Source: Pseudomonadota bacterium
GTDB taxonomy: Bacteria > Pseudomonadota > Alphaproteobacteria > UBA1280 > RI-95
DNA length: 36,953 nt
Direction: 5' to 3'
Assembly (NCBI GenBank): GCA_016125375.1
Contig: WGLU01000003.1
Location: 1 to 36,953, forward strand
In this document: piece after piece, positions 6,271 through 12,514 of the stretch
How positions within the stretch are numbered: the stretch's first letter is position 1
Layout: each line of letters opens with the position of its first letter
Position numbers and translations under genes: made by a program
The notes under the pieces: generated by a model
Told to the model about the DNA's origin: nothing
Seen by the model: the letters and a program-made list of their open reading frames with translations, nothing else
Databases searched by the model: none

Positions 6271-7431
6271 TTACGGCCAGTCGGATGGTTTGACCCAGTT
6301 GCGGTAGGCATCACCCCGCTTGTCGAGGTAGGCGAGGCCCTTGTCGATCATGTCGAACGGGATGCGGTTGCCGCGTAGCCAGCTGTAGAAGGTGTCATAA
6401 TCCTCCTTGCTGATTTTGTGGCGCAAAGCATCCAGCAGTCCCTTGTACATGCCACGGTGTACGTCTTGCAGAATGTGCATGACATCTGTTTGGCGGCCCT
6501 CTTTTTCCAAAAGGCCATCCAGCCCGACCATGACCAGTGGGCACAGGTCGTAGTGAATATATTCGGATACGGCAAACGGCAGGTTCTCATCCGTCACCGG
6601 AATCTGGAACGGCTCTTTATAGTTTTTGAGCTGATTGAGGGGCTCGAAATCCGGTACGGTTGTGTTGTCGCCATCCGTGAGAAGCAAGTGTACTTTGTAG
6701 AGGAAACGCACGCGGTTATCGACCCACTTTGGATTATCGTGCATGACCAGATCCGACCATGAGGCGACGATTTCCAGATACTCGTCTTTTGTCAGGCCGT
6801 ATTCGTCGGGCTGTGTTTCCGGCCTTGGTCGGCGCTTGTTAAAAAGGTGCGATGTCGTATGCATGAAAGTTGCCAGCGAGCGCGGTACATCAAAGTTGCG
6901 GTACAGAGGCGTCATGAAAGGGCCCGGGTTCGGGAAAAGCCGTGTTTCCTTTGTGTCACCGTCACCGGCGCGCCCTGTCACGACGATGATGTAATGATCC
7001 TGTTTTTGTGTGGGCAGCAGGCCCAGTGGATACAGCTGCCGTACGCGGCGGTGGGCGTTCATAATCCAGACGTCAGCCGTCTGGAGCAGGCTAGGGTCGT
7101 ACCCTTTTGGTGACACGCGGTGCAAGGTGATACCTGCTTCCTCATGAGGGAATGTTTTCTCCTCCCAAGCGTCATTTTTCACCAAAACAACAGCTTGATC
7201 GCCGGGAAAAATAGCGCACCCGGGTTCGGTTGTTACACCACCGATGGCGCGCCATCCTTCCGGTACGGCTACGGCTTCACGCGGGTTGTCGGTAACCAGC
7301 AAGGTGTCGTCTTTCCAATTTGCGTGTCCGTGCTTGGTGACTCGGTCTGTTACTGCCGGAGGGGGCGGGCAAGCTTCTACAGAAAGAGCGCTAAACAGAC
7401 AGTATCCAATGATATATGGCAGCAATTTCAT
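6271..7431 (-). CDS. Exported protein, short member of the local three-paralogue family
   Basis: The frame extends to 7536, but the ATG at 7431 begins a proper signal peptide (MKLLPYIIGY..SVEA, cut before Cys21), giving 386 aa. The mature sequence follows the same plan as the N-terminal 370 or so residues of the two large genes next door. It shares a Cys at the mature N-terminus, a GCAIFP motif, RQLYPLGLLP, a RRPRP turn and a helix EYLEIVASWSDLV. It stops where those proteins enter their alpha/beta-hydrolase-like domain. Only this copy has an H-x-x-x-H (HTTSH, 191-195) in the helix before RRPRP. It is divergent from the other two across a 93-nt gap. The function is unknown; an exported binding or enzyme-like module is inference. 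Confidence 0.8.
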   Translation of the reverse strand: MKLLPYIIGYCLFSALSVEACPPPPAVTDRVTKHGHANWKDDTLLVTDNPREAVAVPEGWRAIGGVTTEPGCAIFPGDQAVVLVKNDAWEEKTFPHEEAGITLHRVSPKGYDPSLLQTADVWIMNAHRRVRQLYPLGLLPTQKQDHYIIVVTGRAGDGDTKETRLFPNPGPFMTPLYRNFDVPRSLATFMHTTSHLFNKRRPRPETQPDEYGLTKDEYLEIVASWSDLVMHDNPKWVDNRVRFLYKVHLLLTDGDNTTVPDFEPLNQLKNYKEPFQIPVTDENLPFAVSEYIHYDLCPLVMVGLDGLLEKEGRQTDVMHILQDVHRGMYKGLLDALRHKISKEDYDTFYSWLRGNRIPFDMIDKGLAYLDKRGDAYRNWVKPSDWP

Positions 7432-7462
7432 GTGATTAAGTGTACCTTTCAGCTCCCCATTC

Positions 7463-7490
7463 ATGATAGGGTCTTTATTATTTAATACAA
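7463..7490 (-). promoter_or_regulatory. Candidate promoter in the divergent paralogue gap
   Basis: The minus strand has TTGTAT, 16 nt, TATCAT, placing a start site about 25 nt before the ATG at 7431. The same 93-nt gap must also hold the promoter of the plus-strand gene at 7525. An AT-rich stretch at 7472-7490 is the likely shared region. Confidence 0.35.
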
Positions 7491-7524
7491 TGGTGCCCAC
7501 AAAAATACGAAGGAGAAAACAGAA

Positions 7525-9468
7525 ATGGGCCCCCATCTAGGGCTGGTTGCTGCTTTTTTGTCCATTCTGTTTTTTGGCCCTTTTTCACAAGGCTACGCTG
7601 TCGAGTGCTCCCCGATACCCCAACAACCCGCCCAACTGGGCCTGAGTGGCTATCAGGTATGGCATGGCGGCCAAACACAGGTCTTTAATCCCGTATCGGG
7701 CACAGCTTATAAAATCCCTATTGGTAGTATCGCTTTAGGGGCGGCGGTACATGATGGATGCGCTATTTATCCTGACGGTCAGGGGGGCGTTGTCGTTTCG
7801 GCTGCTACAAATAGCAGCCGTACGCTGGACCTGGGCACGCCCTTTCCCGTTCAGCTCGTGATGCCAGCCAATCTGGATGCCGCAGCACAGGCAGATGTTG
7901 CCACGCGTGTGCAGACTCTCTTCGACAAAATAAGAACGCTTTATCCGCTCGGTTTTGCTGCGGATGATCGCAGGTCCTACACCCTGTGGTTGAGCGCGGG
8001 CATGGCTGGCAGCGGCGAGCAGGCCGCTGACCTGTTGCATCCGCAAGAAGGCACTATGCTTGGCGTAATTGCCTTGCCGCCGGACCACCCCCGGTTCCAA
8101 CGAGAGGCGGTACAGGCCATTGTCAATTTGTTCACACGCCGCCCCCATCCGCAAATGGGGCCTCTCCAGCGTAAAGGCATTCCGGCACCGGATGGCATCG
8201 CTACAATGGCTGTCGACGACTACGATACCCTTGTTCAGGGGTATGCCCAGCTCGCCTTTGCTGAGACCGAGGAGGAGCTTCTGCTTCATCTGTATGATCT
8301 GATAACGGACTATGCAGGATACACAGACGGCCTTGATTGGACGCGTCCGTTGGATGTACTTTTGCGCTTCTTTGCAGGGAATCCGGATTACCTGACCACC
8401 TGGCAAGGCATGGGCACGGCAACACCGGAGGACAAACTGTTTTATAAGAATGTGGCAGCTCCGCTGGACGCATTACGGTTGGCTGTGTTGCTGCATCAGC
8501 AGGGACGGTCGCTGGAAGAGATATTCCGCTACGTCCATAGTGGAAAAGCAGATATTGTCGGCGCCGCTCTGGGGGCTGGGACGTATCCGACCTGGATGGC
8601 TGCACAGCGGCTGGATGATAGAACACACCTGTCGCCCCCCGATCCGCAAGAGAATGATTTTGGCCGAGAGTTTTATCTGGGTGCGGCACAGCTTGGCTGG
8701 CTGACATTACCGAAAATATCGGAGAACCAACGAATCCCGTCGCAAGGTGGGTTCCTTGATGGCAGGTACTACCGGCAGGCTGACGCAAAAATTGCATCGA
8801 AAGTCTTTCTGGTGACCAGTTTTACCGATGCGCTGAACGCCAGCTACAATGCCCAGCCGATGGAACTGATCAGCGCCAAGCTTATTCAGGCCTTGCTGGC
8901 ATATGGAGATGTGTTGTTCATCAACAGGTTCCGGCAGGGACAGTCGGTCAACGTGATGGACGAGTTTTATTATAACTGTGCCGAGCCAGACCTGCGCTGG
9001 GCTGTGAAAAAGGGCGGCATTCTGATGGAAGATGCCGTGCGTTGGCTTAAGTGGCAAGGCTATGAAGAAGTGTACGGCGTTGGCATCAGCCGCGGGGCGA
9101 CCGCATTGATTGCCGCTGCCGAGGATGTCCCTTTTGAGCAACTGTTTTTGATGAACCCCTGGCGTGGCAAGGATACAGAAGGGCTGAGCAAACAGGAACA
9201 GCTCAAACCCCAATGTGGCGGGGGCAATTTTATGAACGTGATGGAAGGTTTTGTCCGCCATACAAAGGCCAAGGCGATACATGCCGTATCCCATGACGAT
9301 CTGCTGGCGTATCTGGCGGCCAACAACTGGCTGGAACGGTACAAGGCGCTTTTTAATACCCACATATCATATATGCCTCCCCGCTGGATGCGGCAGTGGC
9401 TGTATGACACGACATACCCGCAGAAGTGGGTCAAAACAATTGAGCAAAAATTAGAACCGCAACAATAA
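7525..9468 (+). CDS. Large exported protein with C-terminal alpha/beta-hydrolase-like domain (intact GxSxG)
   Basis: The 647-aa product has a signal peptide (cut near QGYA/VEC). The N-terminal domain (about 28-370) has a Cys near the mature end, DGCAIYPDGQ, RTLYPLGFA, RRPHPQMGP and YDTLVQGYAQLAF. This is the plan shared with the short divergent gene and with the next gene. From about 425 the chain resembles an alpha/beta-hydrolase: KVFLVTSFTDA, then ALLAYGDVLFINRF, then WLKWQGYEEVYGVGISRGA with a GxSxG elbow (Ser522). His590 (AVSHDDLL) is a candidate catalytic base. A Cys pair (in NCAEPD and QCGGGN) is conserved in the paralogue. AGGAG lies 9 nt before the ATG. I do not recognise the family; substrate and reaction are unknown. 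Confidence 0.85.
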   Translation: MGPHLGLVAAFLSILFFGPFSQGYAVECSPIPQQPAQLGLSGYQVWHGGQTQVFNPVSGTAYKIPIGSIALGAAVHDGCAIYPDGQGGVVVSAATNSSRTLDLGTPFPVQLVMPANLDAAAQADVATRVQTLFDKIRTLYPLGFAADDRRSYTLWLSAGMAGSGEQAADLLHPQEGTMLGVIALPPDHPRFQREAVQAIVNLFTRRPHPQMGPLQRKGIPAPDGIATMAVDDYDTLVQGYAQLAFAETEEELLLHLYDLITDYAGYTDGLDWTRPLDVLLRFFAGNPDYLTTWQGMGTATPEDKLFYKNVAAPLDALRLAVLLHQQGRSLEEIFRYVHSGKADIVGAALGAGTYPTWMAAQRLDDRTHLSPPDPQENDFGREFYLGAAQLGWLTLPKISENQRIPSQGGFLDGRYYRQADAKIASKVFLVTSFTDALNASYNAQPMELISAKLIQALLAYGDVLFINRFRQGQSVNVMDEFYYNCAEPDLRWAVKKGGILMEDAVRWLKWQGYEEVYGVGISRGATALIAAAEDVPFEQLFLMNPWRGKDTEGLSKQEQLKPQCGGGNFMNVMEGFVRHTKAKAIHAVSHDDLLAYLAANNWLERYKALFNTHISYMPPRWMRQWLYDTTYPQKWVKTIEQKLEPQQ

Positions 9469-9478
9469 GGACGTGTCT

Positions 9479-11464
9479 ATGAAACCTTTCACCCTAGTTG
9501 TTACAGCAACAATCGCCAGCGGCATTGCCGTAAGCGCCAGTGCGCAATGTGCGTTGTTGCCCCAGTACACAGAGCACATTACCCTGCTGGGACACCAAAC
9601 ATGGAACAGTAACGGTCTGCGGATGTTCCCGGCAGATAAAGGAGCTGCCTATGCAGTGGACACCGGCTATAGAGTTGTCGGTGGCAAGGTTGACGAGGCA
9701 GGATGTGTAACCTATCCGGATGGCCAGACAGCTGTTCAGGTTGACAGCGACCAATTTATGACTGAACCCATTCGGTTCAACACCGACCGGTTTCAGGCGC
9801 ACCTTGTTTATCCAAAGAGCCTGCCCTCCCCAGATGTCACATTGATGCGCCAGACAATTCAGGCCGTCGCCGACAGGGTCAGCCGGATATATCCCCTCGG
9901 ATTTGCCCCCTCGAACAAGCAAGATTTTTATATTCTTTCAACCGCCGGCCTTGCCGGTGATGCGTACTTGAACACGCAACGGATTAAGGCACCCGCTGGT
10001 ACCAATCTGGCGGTTCTGGCACTGCCCCCCCGTCATCCGGACTTTGAGGCCGAGGTTATACGGGCAATGGTAGATGTTTATACGGTCTCGCGCCCCCATC
10101 CATTGATGGGCCCCAAAGAACGCTCCAACAAGCGTGACCGTAAAATCGACTTCGGCAAAACACTCTACACCCTCAATGTGGCTGACTATGATGCGCTCGT
10201 CGCATCCTGGGCAACCGTGGCGTTGGAAAGCAACAAAGACCGCAGACTGGAACGTCTTTATAACACGCTGGTAGACTACGCCGGATACATTGACACATCC
10301 AAGCGAACGGAAGCACAGGATCTTACCCTGTCACATATCCAGAACGACAAGTTTGCAGAGACATGGAAAAATCTGGATGCAGCTTCACCGGAGGATGCGT
10401 ATTTCTACCGCTACAACGCGTCCCTGGTGGACGCCATGCGTCTGACAGGTGAAGCGCTGAGCGCCGATGAAGATATTAAGGAAATTTTCACGGATATTAA
10501 CAAGGGTGAAGCGCTGTCATTGGCTGGAAAGCTTGGTGAGGATGCGGTAAAGCGTGCCATGGAAGGCTACCGCGCGACAGATGCCGATATGTTGCAAAGC
10601 CAGTCCATCACGCGTACGGCGGTCTTTGGGCAGGAGGTTTTTGATGCCGCGCAAAAAGCCGGCTATCTGGATGTACCGCCGTTACCTGAGAGTGAGGAGG
10701 TCTTTTCCCGTGGGGCACATCTGGATACGCGCCTCTACCAGCAGTCACAGGATAAGCTGGCCGACAAGGTGTTCTTGCTGACGACCTTCCAGCCTTCGGG
10801 TTTTGCCAATGGTAGCGTCCAGTCACTTGGGTACATTTTGGGCAATACCGTTCGCGCCCTGTTGACCAAAGGGGATGTTCTGGTTGTTGCGCGTGCCAAT
10901 GAAGGTCTGACCCGCGATGCCTTGCGCGATAGTCTGATGAGCTGCTCTGCGAATGAGTTTTCATGGAGTATGCGCAAAGCTGCCATCCACATGCAGGACA
11001 CGGTGAGCTGGCTCAGATGGCGCGGATATAAGCACGTTGAGGCTGTTGGTTTTGGTAAGGGTGCGCTGGCGCTTGTTGCTGATGCCGACGACAAAAACCT
11101 TGAGAAGATTTACGCATTCAACCCTTGGCGTGCCAGTGAGGATGCGCAGCTCAAGCCCTATGACACATGGCGTGGTCTGGACTATATCGCCACGCGTTAC
11201 CTGGTACCGGGTGTACCGAGTAAGCAATGTGGTGAGGATGCCATCCTGAAAGCGTTGGAGAGTCTGGTGCAGCCGGCTGACCGGGCAAAAATCACTGCCT
11301 TGTCAGGTGCCAATATGATGGCACACCTCAAGCAGTACGAGGGTTGGACACGACGTTACAACGCCATCTTCGGCAAAAACATCATCTACCCTGTTGGTAA
11401 ATGGAATTACCCATGGGCGGAGCCTGCCTTCTATCCGGACGAATGGATCGATAAGGTGGACTAA
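9479..11464 (+). CDS. Large exported paralogue with hydrolase-like domain, nucleophile Ser replaced by Gly
   Basis: The ATG at 9479 (AAGGA 7 nt before) gives 661 aa with a signal peptide cut after ASA/QC. It lies 10 nt after the preceding paralogue, so the two form an operon ended by a strong terminator. The same landmarks occur in the same order: GCVTYPDGQ, SRIYPLGFAPSNKQD, RPHPLMGP, YDALVASWATVAL, SPEDAYFYRYNASLVDAMRL, KVFLLTTFQ, and WLRWRGYKHVEAVGFGKGA. The elbow reads GFGKG, so Gly526 replaces the nucleophile Ser. The position matching His590 of the neighbour is Gly610 (ALSGANMM). Fold-specific residues such as NPWR and the two Cys are kept. It may be a non-catalytic partner or binding version of its neighbour (inference). 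Confidence 0.85.
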   Translation: MKPFTLVVTATIASGIAVSASAQCALLPQYTEHITLLGHQTWNSNGLRMFPADKGAAYAVDTGYRVVGGKVDEAGCVTYPDGQTAVQVDSDQFMTEPIRFNTDRFQAHLVYPKSLPSPDVTLMRQTIQAVADRVSRIYPLGFAPSNKQDFYILSTAGLAGDAYLNTQRIKAPAGTNLAVLALPPRHPDFEAEVIRAMVDVYTVSRPHPLMGPKERSNKRDRKIDFGKTLYTLNVADYDALVASWATVALESNKDRRLERLYNTLVDYAGYIDTSKRTEAQDLTLSHIQNDKFAETWKNLDAASPEDAYFYRYNASLVDAMRLTGEALSADEDIKEIFTDINKGEALSLAGKLGEDAVKRAMEGYRATDADMLQSQSITRTAVFGQEVFDAAQKAGYLDVPPLPESEEVFSRGAHLDTRLYQQSQDKLADKVFLLTTFQPSGFANGSVQSLGYILGNTVRALLTKGDVLVVARANEGLTRDALRDSLMSCSANEFSWSMRKAAIHMQDTVSWLRWRGYKHVEAVGFGKGALALVADADDKNLEKIYAFNPWRASEDAQLKPYDTWRGLDYIATRYLVPGVPSKQCGEDAILKALESLVQPADRAKITALSGANMMAHLKQYEGWTRRYNAIFGKNIIYPVGKWNYPWAEPAFYPDEWIDKVD

Positions 11465-11473
11465 CAACCAAAT

Positions 11474-11502
11474 AAAAAAGGCGGCCTTGTGGCCGCCTTT
11501 TT
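11474..11502. terminator. Strong bidirectional terminator
   Basis: A 7-bp GC stem (GGCGGCC/GGCCGCC) with a TTGT loop is flanked by six A on one side and a run of T on the other. It ends the paralogue operon from the left and the repeat-protein gene from the right. Confidence 0.92.
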
Positions 11503-11515
11503 AGTGCTCGGTCAC

Positions 11516-12514
11516 CTACCAGTCACCGCGGTCATCATCACTGTTGTAGGAGCAGTTTACACAGCTGCCGGAACAGTTGTATGTACCGCTACCACCGCAA
11601 CGGCTACCACAGCTGCAGGGGTTACCTGTATTTGACGAACAACCGCCTGTCGTGGTGGTGGTTGATCCTGACGGTGCGGCAGACGTACAGTTGACGCTGG
11701 AGCCGTCGGACGTACACCATTTGCCGCTTTGCAAGCTGCCAACCTGCGGGTCACTTTCGGCGGTCAGACCCTGGTCGGTTGCACATTCCCAGCCGCTCCC
11801 GTTCCAGCGCAGCTTTTGCGATGTGCCGCAAGCTGGCGGCAGGGTGTAGGCGTTGGATGTTGGCACAGTGGCATCACAAATCACCTGCACACCGTTAGAG
11901 CGGCAGAGTTTGCCGTTAGTCAGGCTGCCAACCTGCGGGTCGGTCTCGGTCGTGGCGGCGGTAGCACCCAATGCGTCGTTCACGCAGGTCCATGCTGTGC
12001 CGTTCCACTGAATTTTGTTATCACCGGTACAGGTCGGGATGTTACCCACGTTGCCGCTGCCCACATACAGCTGGCCGGCGGTGACGCGGTTGGTTACGTT
12101 CACGTTGCCCGACGGTACGCTCAGTCCGTTGTTCACGGTGGCGCCGTTGTTCATCGTGGCAGCACCATTCACAGTGGCGCCACCGCTTATTGTTGCGCCG
12201 CCGCTGTTTACGGTCAGGCCGTTGTTAACGGTGGCACCGTTAGTAAAGGTGAAATTGGGGACACACCCCTGCGCGTTAGCGCTGGCGTGCGTAGGTGCGT
12301 AAACCATACCGGCCGCCGTACAGGCGTTCATGCGGTCGTTTTCACCCTGAAGCGAAGTCACCTGCGCGTTCTGTTTTGCGCCTTCGCCGCCGCCGCGGGA
12401 GGAAGACGAGAAGAACTTGGTTTGTGCCTGTGTTGTTGTTGGCCAGGCGCCAAGCACGGCAGCCAGGACAAGAACGGCAACGGTCGTCAAAGTACCGGTT
12501 GCGCGAAACATCAT
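11516..12514 (-). CDS. Exported repeat-rich, Cys-containing surface protein
   Basis: The start is the ATG at 12514, with AAGGAG 6 nt before it; the frame itself extends further upstream. The 332-aa product has a signal peptide (cut after TQA). A short helical segment QNAQVTSLQGENDRMN may be a coiled coil. Residues 91-142 form a period-6 repeat built on NGATVN/NGLTVN/GGATIS. Two modules follow (about 162-218 and 226-279), each with a WNGxxWxC segment, then E(T/S)DPQVGSL, GKxCxSxGxxVxC. The C-terminus is Ser/Gly/Cys-rich (residues 291-321 hold eight Cys). Such architecture is typical of fibre, pilus-tip or tail-fibre-like surface proteins. Cell-surface attachment is inference; no membrane anchor or autotransporter barrel is seen. 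Confidence 0.8.
   Translation of the reverse strand: MMFRATGTLTTVAVLVLAAVLGAWPTTTQAQTKFFSSSSRGGGEGAKQNAQVTSLQGENDRMNACTAAGMVYAPTHASANAQGCVPNFTFTNGATVNNGLTVNSGGATISGGATVNGAATMNNGATVNNGLSVPSGNVNVTNRVTAGQLYVGSGNVGNIPTCTGDNKIQWNGTAWTCVNDALGATAATTETDPQVGSLTNGKLCRSNGVQVICDATVPTSNAYTLPPACGTSQKLRWNGSGWECATDQGLTAESDPQVGSLQSGKWCTSDGSSVNCTSAAPSGSTTTTTGGCSSNTGNPCSCGSRCGGSGTYNCSGSCVNCSYNSDDDRGDW
11678..12031 (-). repeat. Two WNG / DPQVGSL modules inside the surface-protein gene
   Basis: Residues 162-218 and 226-279 of the surface protein are two copies of one module: (K/L)xWNGxxWxC, a variable spacer, (T/S)DPQVGSLxxGKxC, then SxGxxVxC. The Cys positions are the same in both copies, implying the same disulfide pattern. 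Confidence 0.75.
12089..12244 (-). repeat. Hexapeptide repeat region in the surface-protein gene
   Basis: Residues 91-142 consist of about eight short units of the type N-G-A-T-V-N, mostly 6 residues with two 7-residue units. The regular Gly/Asn/Val pattern suggests a beta-helix or fibre shaft. The DNA copies differ at third positions, so it is not a recent tandem duplication. Confidence 0.7.

Follow-up and report, generated by a model that had tools for sequence, protein, structure and literature searches.

An expanded family of exported pseudoenzyme-like proteins, with a recurrent fibre-like gene beside its full-length members, in an alphaproteobacterium

Genes A, B and C, which lie in a 36,953-nucleotide stretch at the start of contig 4 of a nine-contig, 1.98-Mb alphaproteobacterial assembly (the whole stretch is called the window here), belong to an expanded family of exported proteins in which catalytic residues have been lost. 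The explanation that we favour, tentatively and at a little under an even chance, is that these proteins are pseudoenzymes serving as non-catalytic binding or assembly partners, and that the full-length type works together with a fibre-like secreted protein that ends in GDW and is encoded next to it.

The initial annotation had described a divergent cluster of one minus-strand and two plus-strand genes around a 93-nt gap, closed by a strong terminator, and the open reading frames and a terminal hairpin bear this layout out. Gene A (P0001, 386 aa) occupies 6271-7431 on the minus strand, with the ATG at 7431 as its best start (MKLLPYIIG...), and encodes a member of the short subfamily that consists of a signal peptide and the N-domain only. 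Across the gap (7432-7524) lies gene B (P0002, 647 aa; 7525-9468, plus strand), a full-length member in which the signal peptide and N-domain are followed by a hydrolase-like C-domain, and gene C (P0003, 661 aa; 9479-11464, plus strand), which has an ATG start and the same layout, follows after 10 nt. The hairpin at 11475-11502, AAAAAGGCGGCC-ACAA-GGCCGCCTTTTT, is the strongest terminator-like site in the region. Since it is nearly symmetric, it can serve not only gene C but also the gene facing it, which encodes the fibre-like secreted protein (P0005, 332 aa; 11516-12514, minus strand), with GATVNNG-type repeats and the C-terminal GDW.

The N-terminal motifs that had been said to unite A, B and C are real, and pairwise BLASTP places their mutual similarity well beyond chance (B versus C, 31% over 665 columns, E 3e-112; A versus C, E 2e-24; A versus B, E 2e-13). 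The description of the family as unrecognised proved correct in so far as the libraries searched supplied no name: hmmscan found no Pfam family for the three proteins at E<=1, and there was no meaningful NCBIfam match and no PHROG or PADLOC match. It does not hold for their domains, as B and C carry an alpha/beta hydrolase domain in their C-terminal half, for which the family profile finds matches in 14 further genomes among 385 of the same class (in the hydrolase domain only), and the N-terminal half is probably of M1/M61 type. An anti-phage defence reading was rejected with the PADLOC models unmatched, and a phage or plasmid origin found no match in IMG/VR, PLSDB or PHROGs.

Eleven family genes turned up in the source genome when it was searched with C and with an all-member profile, in agreement with the earlier suggestion of an exported, expanded family. 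B, C, D (contig 1) and E (contig 5) are full-length; A and four genes on contig 6 (H, I, J and K) are short and comprise the N-domain only; G (contig 7) combines a reduced N-domain with the C-domain, and F (contig 9) is a C-domain only. Among 40 relatives of the source genome, five of them from the same order, no family member was found, and among the 385 same-class genomes a full-length homologue occurs in one other (G381; E 9e-100). Hence the family is accessory and has expanded in one lineage. The 35 further genomes of the family to which G381 belongs hold no full-length homologue, and a GTDB species pattern scan with P0003, of a type that detects close relatives only, found no relative. 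In the tree, a short clade, (H,(J,(K,(A,I)))), stands apart from the full-length clade, and the nearest relative of A is I on contig 6; the divergent cluster thus joins two subfamilies and is not made up of three fresh duplicates. On these grounds, and because the A-B-C arrangement was seen only here, the three-gene layout was rejected as a conserved system. D and E, which are 72% identical, combine a dN of 0.20 with a saturated dS of about 2.6 and are thus constrained genes under purifying selection; their decay as pseudogenes was rejected on the same values.

Sequence comparison shows homology between the C-terminal halves of B and C and S9/S15-like alpha/beta hydrolases, a relationship found for the core domain with S9, S15 and Hydrolase_4 proteins. 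The same-class hydrolase relatives that we tested match the S15, S9 and Hydrolase_4 models, and in the alignment they retain GQSAGG, the acid in ND, and DGH. No two-domain protein (B, C, D, E, G or the G381 protein) has an intact Ser-Asp-His triad, and the extent of the loss varies. The C-domain of B (residues ~404-640; 8734-9444, plus strand) keeps the nucleophile Ser within a GISRG elbow (residues 520-524; 9082-9096, plus strand) and the acid, and its catalytic His is gone. The C-domain of C (residues ~410-661; 10706-11461, plus strand) has lost Ser, acid and His, with GFGKG at the position of the elbow (residues 524-528; 11048-11062, plus strand). D and E have neither triad nor elbow; G reads GTAAGG and lacks only the Ser, its acid and His being present; and the G381 protein has a Gly at the nucleophile position in an ungapped alignment. 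The only complete triad of the family (GQSSGG, an aspartate and a His) belongs to F, a lipoprotein encoded at L012:4542-5537, which would be its sole likely active hydrolase and which scores 1e-4 against Abhydrolase_1, under the curated cut-off. Two cysteines are common to all seven C-domains.

With moderate confidence, we take the N-domain to be a decayed M1/M61-type gluzincin domain that has lost its catalytic Glu. In place of the gluzincin HExxH, the second helix of A, I, H and J carries HTTSH, HTTTH, HTLVH or HAVAH in a context near LLxHxxxHL(F/Y)N, and HExxH is found in no family member. In gene A the motif is H191-TTS-H195 (6847-6861, minus strand), where Thr replaces the catalytic Glu, and E220 in YLEIVASW (6772-6774, minus strand) is a candidate third metal ligand, separated from the second His by 24 intervening residues. 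A Glu about 25 residues past HxxxH, in YxE followed by A(S/T)W, is common to A, H, I and J, the only members to keep both elements; neither survives in any full-length member or in K, although K groups with A and I in the tree. The short members with this H-x3-H-x24-E pattern may still hold a metal ion. The structural side of the assignment comes from AlphaFold models of the window proteins, which have a low mean pLDDT of 44-47 and were built on alignments of three rows only; within the model of C, much of residues 40-200 reaches 65-89 and shows strands, a long helix, more strands and a second helix. In Foldseek searches against the PDB, this low-confidence C model gave M1 aminopeptidases as top matches (6a8z, E 1.3e-3; probability 0.93-0.97) and M61 lower down, and the likewise low-confidence A model gave M1 matches with a probability of up to 0.91 (8cgw) amid low-probability Tdp2 matches; none of the N-domain matches reaches E 0.001. 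Comparison of the N-domain with M61 and M1 sets by hhalign was not significant, and the best M61 alignment sets motif on motif; an M61-type relative reads LLPHEMVHSWNGKYRR. The source genome contains no M1 or M61 match and none to Peptidase_MA_2, which was tried as a model of the N-domain, and our literature search on M61 or gluzincin pseudopeptidases found nothing.

All three window proteins carry export signals. The initial annotation had placed a Cys at their mature N-terminus; the residue is present, and a reading of A, B and C as lipoproteins was rejected because they have no lipobox, which is clear in F, G and I. Given the missing lipobox and the membership of this Cys in an invariant pair of N-domain cysteines (C24 and C76 in C), a disulphide is more likely than a lipid anchor. 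There are exactly four cysteines in each of B, C, D and E, two per domain, which fits a location in the periplasm or outside the cell.

The neighbour that recurs with full-length members is not gene A but the fibre-like gene at 11516-12514, which lies outside the interval originally singled out. It is arranged tail-to-tail with C at a distance of 51 nt; a second copy, 77% identical, faces D at 65 nt; and a third, which is split across the ends of contigs 5 and 6 (L011:1-340 and L091:1-324), faces E at 61 nt, so that all three GDW fibre genes of the source genome face a full-length gene 51-65 nt away. The split third gene suggests that contigs 5 and 6 adjoin and that the assembly was broken by copies of the fibre gene. 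The two genes of the G381 pair share a strand, the stop of the fibre gene overlapping the start of the full-length gene as TAATG; a relaxase and a TraG/VirD4-type coupling protein are encoded nearby, and the pair therefore probably lies on a conjugative element. In separate searches of the 385 class genomes, the fibre protein and the two-domain members were found in the same two genomes. Close fibre proteins also occur in Stappia albiluteola and Telmatospirillum sp. J64-1, both Alphaproteobacteria; neither has a family member anywhere in its genome, so the fibre does not require the partner. The short members, F and G are not beside GDW fibre genes, with the exception of A, which is two genes away.

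Further members of the fibre family occur in the source genome (L042, L046, L047, L048, L049 and L050) and combine a constant N-terminus, KFFSTxxRGGxxGAK, with variable C-termini, two of which bear Hint domains. Short tyrosine recombinases of about 200 aa are encoded near fibre-family genes in two genomes (L047:690-1358, L048:441-1034 and L039:10982-11566), those in L047 and L039 matching Phage_integrase, and a role in the movement of cassettes is possible. The Stappia fibre gene has next to it the genes of two small secreted proteins (L038:6096-7657) that contain collagen-like repeats, GPKGPVG and GDPGDSGPQG. Four DUF1513 proteins (PF07433) with RR-type signal sequences are encoded near family members (L091:432-1766, L012:3247-4545, L009:6331-7650 and L009:8321-9832), two of them lying between H and I, another adjoining F and the remaining one located upstream of the third fibre gene; DUF1513 is possibly a second functional link to the family.

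The favoured reading can be set out as follows. Full-length proteins such as B and C would combine an M1/M61-derived N-domain with an S9/S15-like-derived C-domain, in both of which the active site has been lost, whereas the fold and the paired cysteines are retained; the short proteins, such as A, would represent the N-domain alone, its catalytic Glu gone. The family proteins would most likely act non-catalytically in the periplasm or at the cell surface, where the full-length protein could be, for example, an assembly factor or a ligand-binding companion of the adjacent GDW fibre. The export signals, the homology, the pairing of the genes, their overlap in G381, the catalytic losses and the constraint on D and E are observed directly; the N-domain fold, at moderate confidence, the physical partnership with the fibre protein and the surface function are what we infer. 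A bolder version, which we consider possible and rather doubtful, is that fibre and double pseudoenzyme (a dead gluzincin plus a dead alpha/beta hydrolase) constitute a new two-part surface system that travels on conjugative elements and has multiplied in a single alphaproteobacterium with a small genome, the dead folds serving recognition or fibre assembly.

The co-occurrence of fibre and family comes from two genomes, a small sample, and joint horizontal transfer of the two genes could account for it. The pseudoenzymes would then be independent of the fibre, perhaps periplasmic peptide- or metal-binding proteins multiplied for nutrient capture. In favour of this are the eleven copies, the majority of them away from GDW fibre genes, several near DUF1513 genes and one (I) following a TRAP-type transporter, and the fibre genes that occur without the family. 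However, that each of the three GDW fibre genes of the source genome adjoins a full-length member is harder to reconcile with independence, and the G381 pair overlaps in a different orientation, unlike one copied segment. We regard independent binding proteins as unlikely. That some members are still enzymes with altered sites (B using its Ser and acid with another base, and A, H, I and J acting as metal-dependent hydrolases without the usual Glu) is improbable: the GISRG and acid of B, the HxxxH and Glu of the four short proteins and the full triad of the paralogue F all speak for it, but the Glu of HExxH is missing throughout the family, the catalytic His is absent from B to E, and C, in tandem with B, has none of the three triad residues. 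The constant N-terminus and variable C-termini of the fibre family, together with its two Hint domains, could also mark its members as polymorphic toxins or contact-dependent effectors, with the full-length proteins providing immunity or acting as adaptors. Yet no family member is among the nearest open reading frames of the Hint-bearing copies, the GDW copies have a highly conserved C-terminus and no toxin domain, and a PADLOC match is absent, which leaves this a very improbable reading.

If non-catalytic partners of the fibre are indeed what these proteins are, the fibre partner in an overlapping gene suggests concretely what dead enzyme folds might do on the cell surface. An eleven-copy pseudoenzyme family is unusual in a genome of 2 Mb, and, as far as our searches show, no protein that combines decayed enzymes from two classes has been described, a literature search on dead-enzyme fusions having found nothing.

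Among known systems, the fibre gene resembles, by eye only, PilV-type pilus-tip or tail-fibre adhesins in being secreted and repetitive, in its constant N-terminus and variable C-termini, and in its conjugative-element surroundings, whereas the fibre protein has no Pfam or PDB match. With the M1/M61 gluzincins (PF01433, PF05299) the N-domain probably shares the fold and, in the short members, LLxHxxxHx(W/F/Y)N and a Glu on the next helix, but the catalytic Glu is absent from all members and the sequence or profile match is not significant. Finally, the secreted S9/S15-like alphaproteobacterial hydrolases (PF02129, PF00326, PF12146) differ from the two-domain proteins in their intact triad and in having no such N-domain fused to them, and are like them in the homologous C-domain, with its RRGYG...C...GQSAGG core and the same two cysteines.
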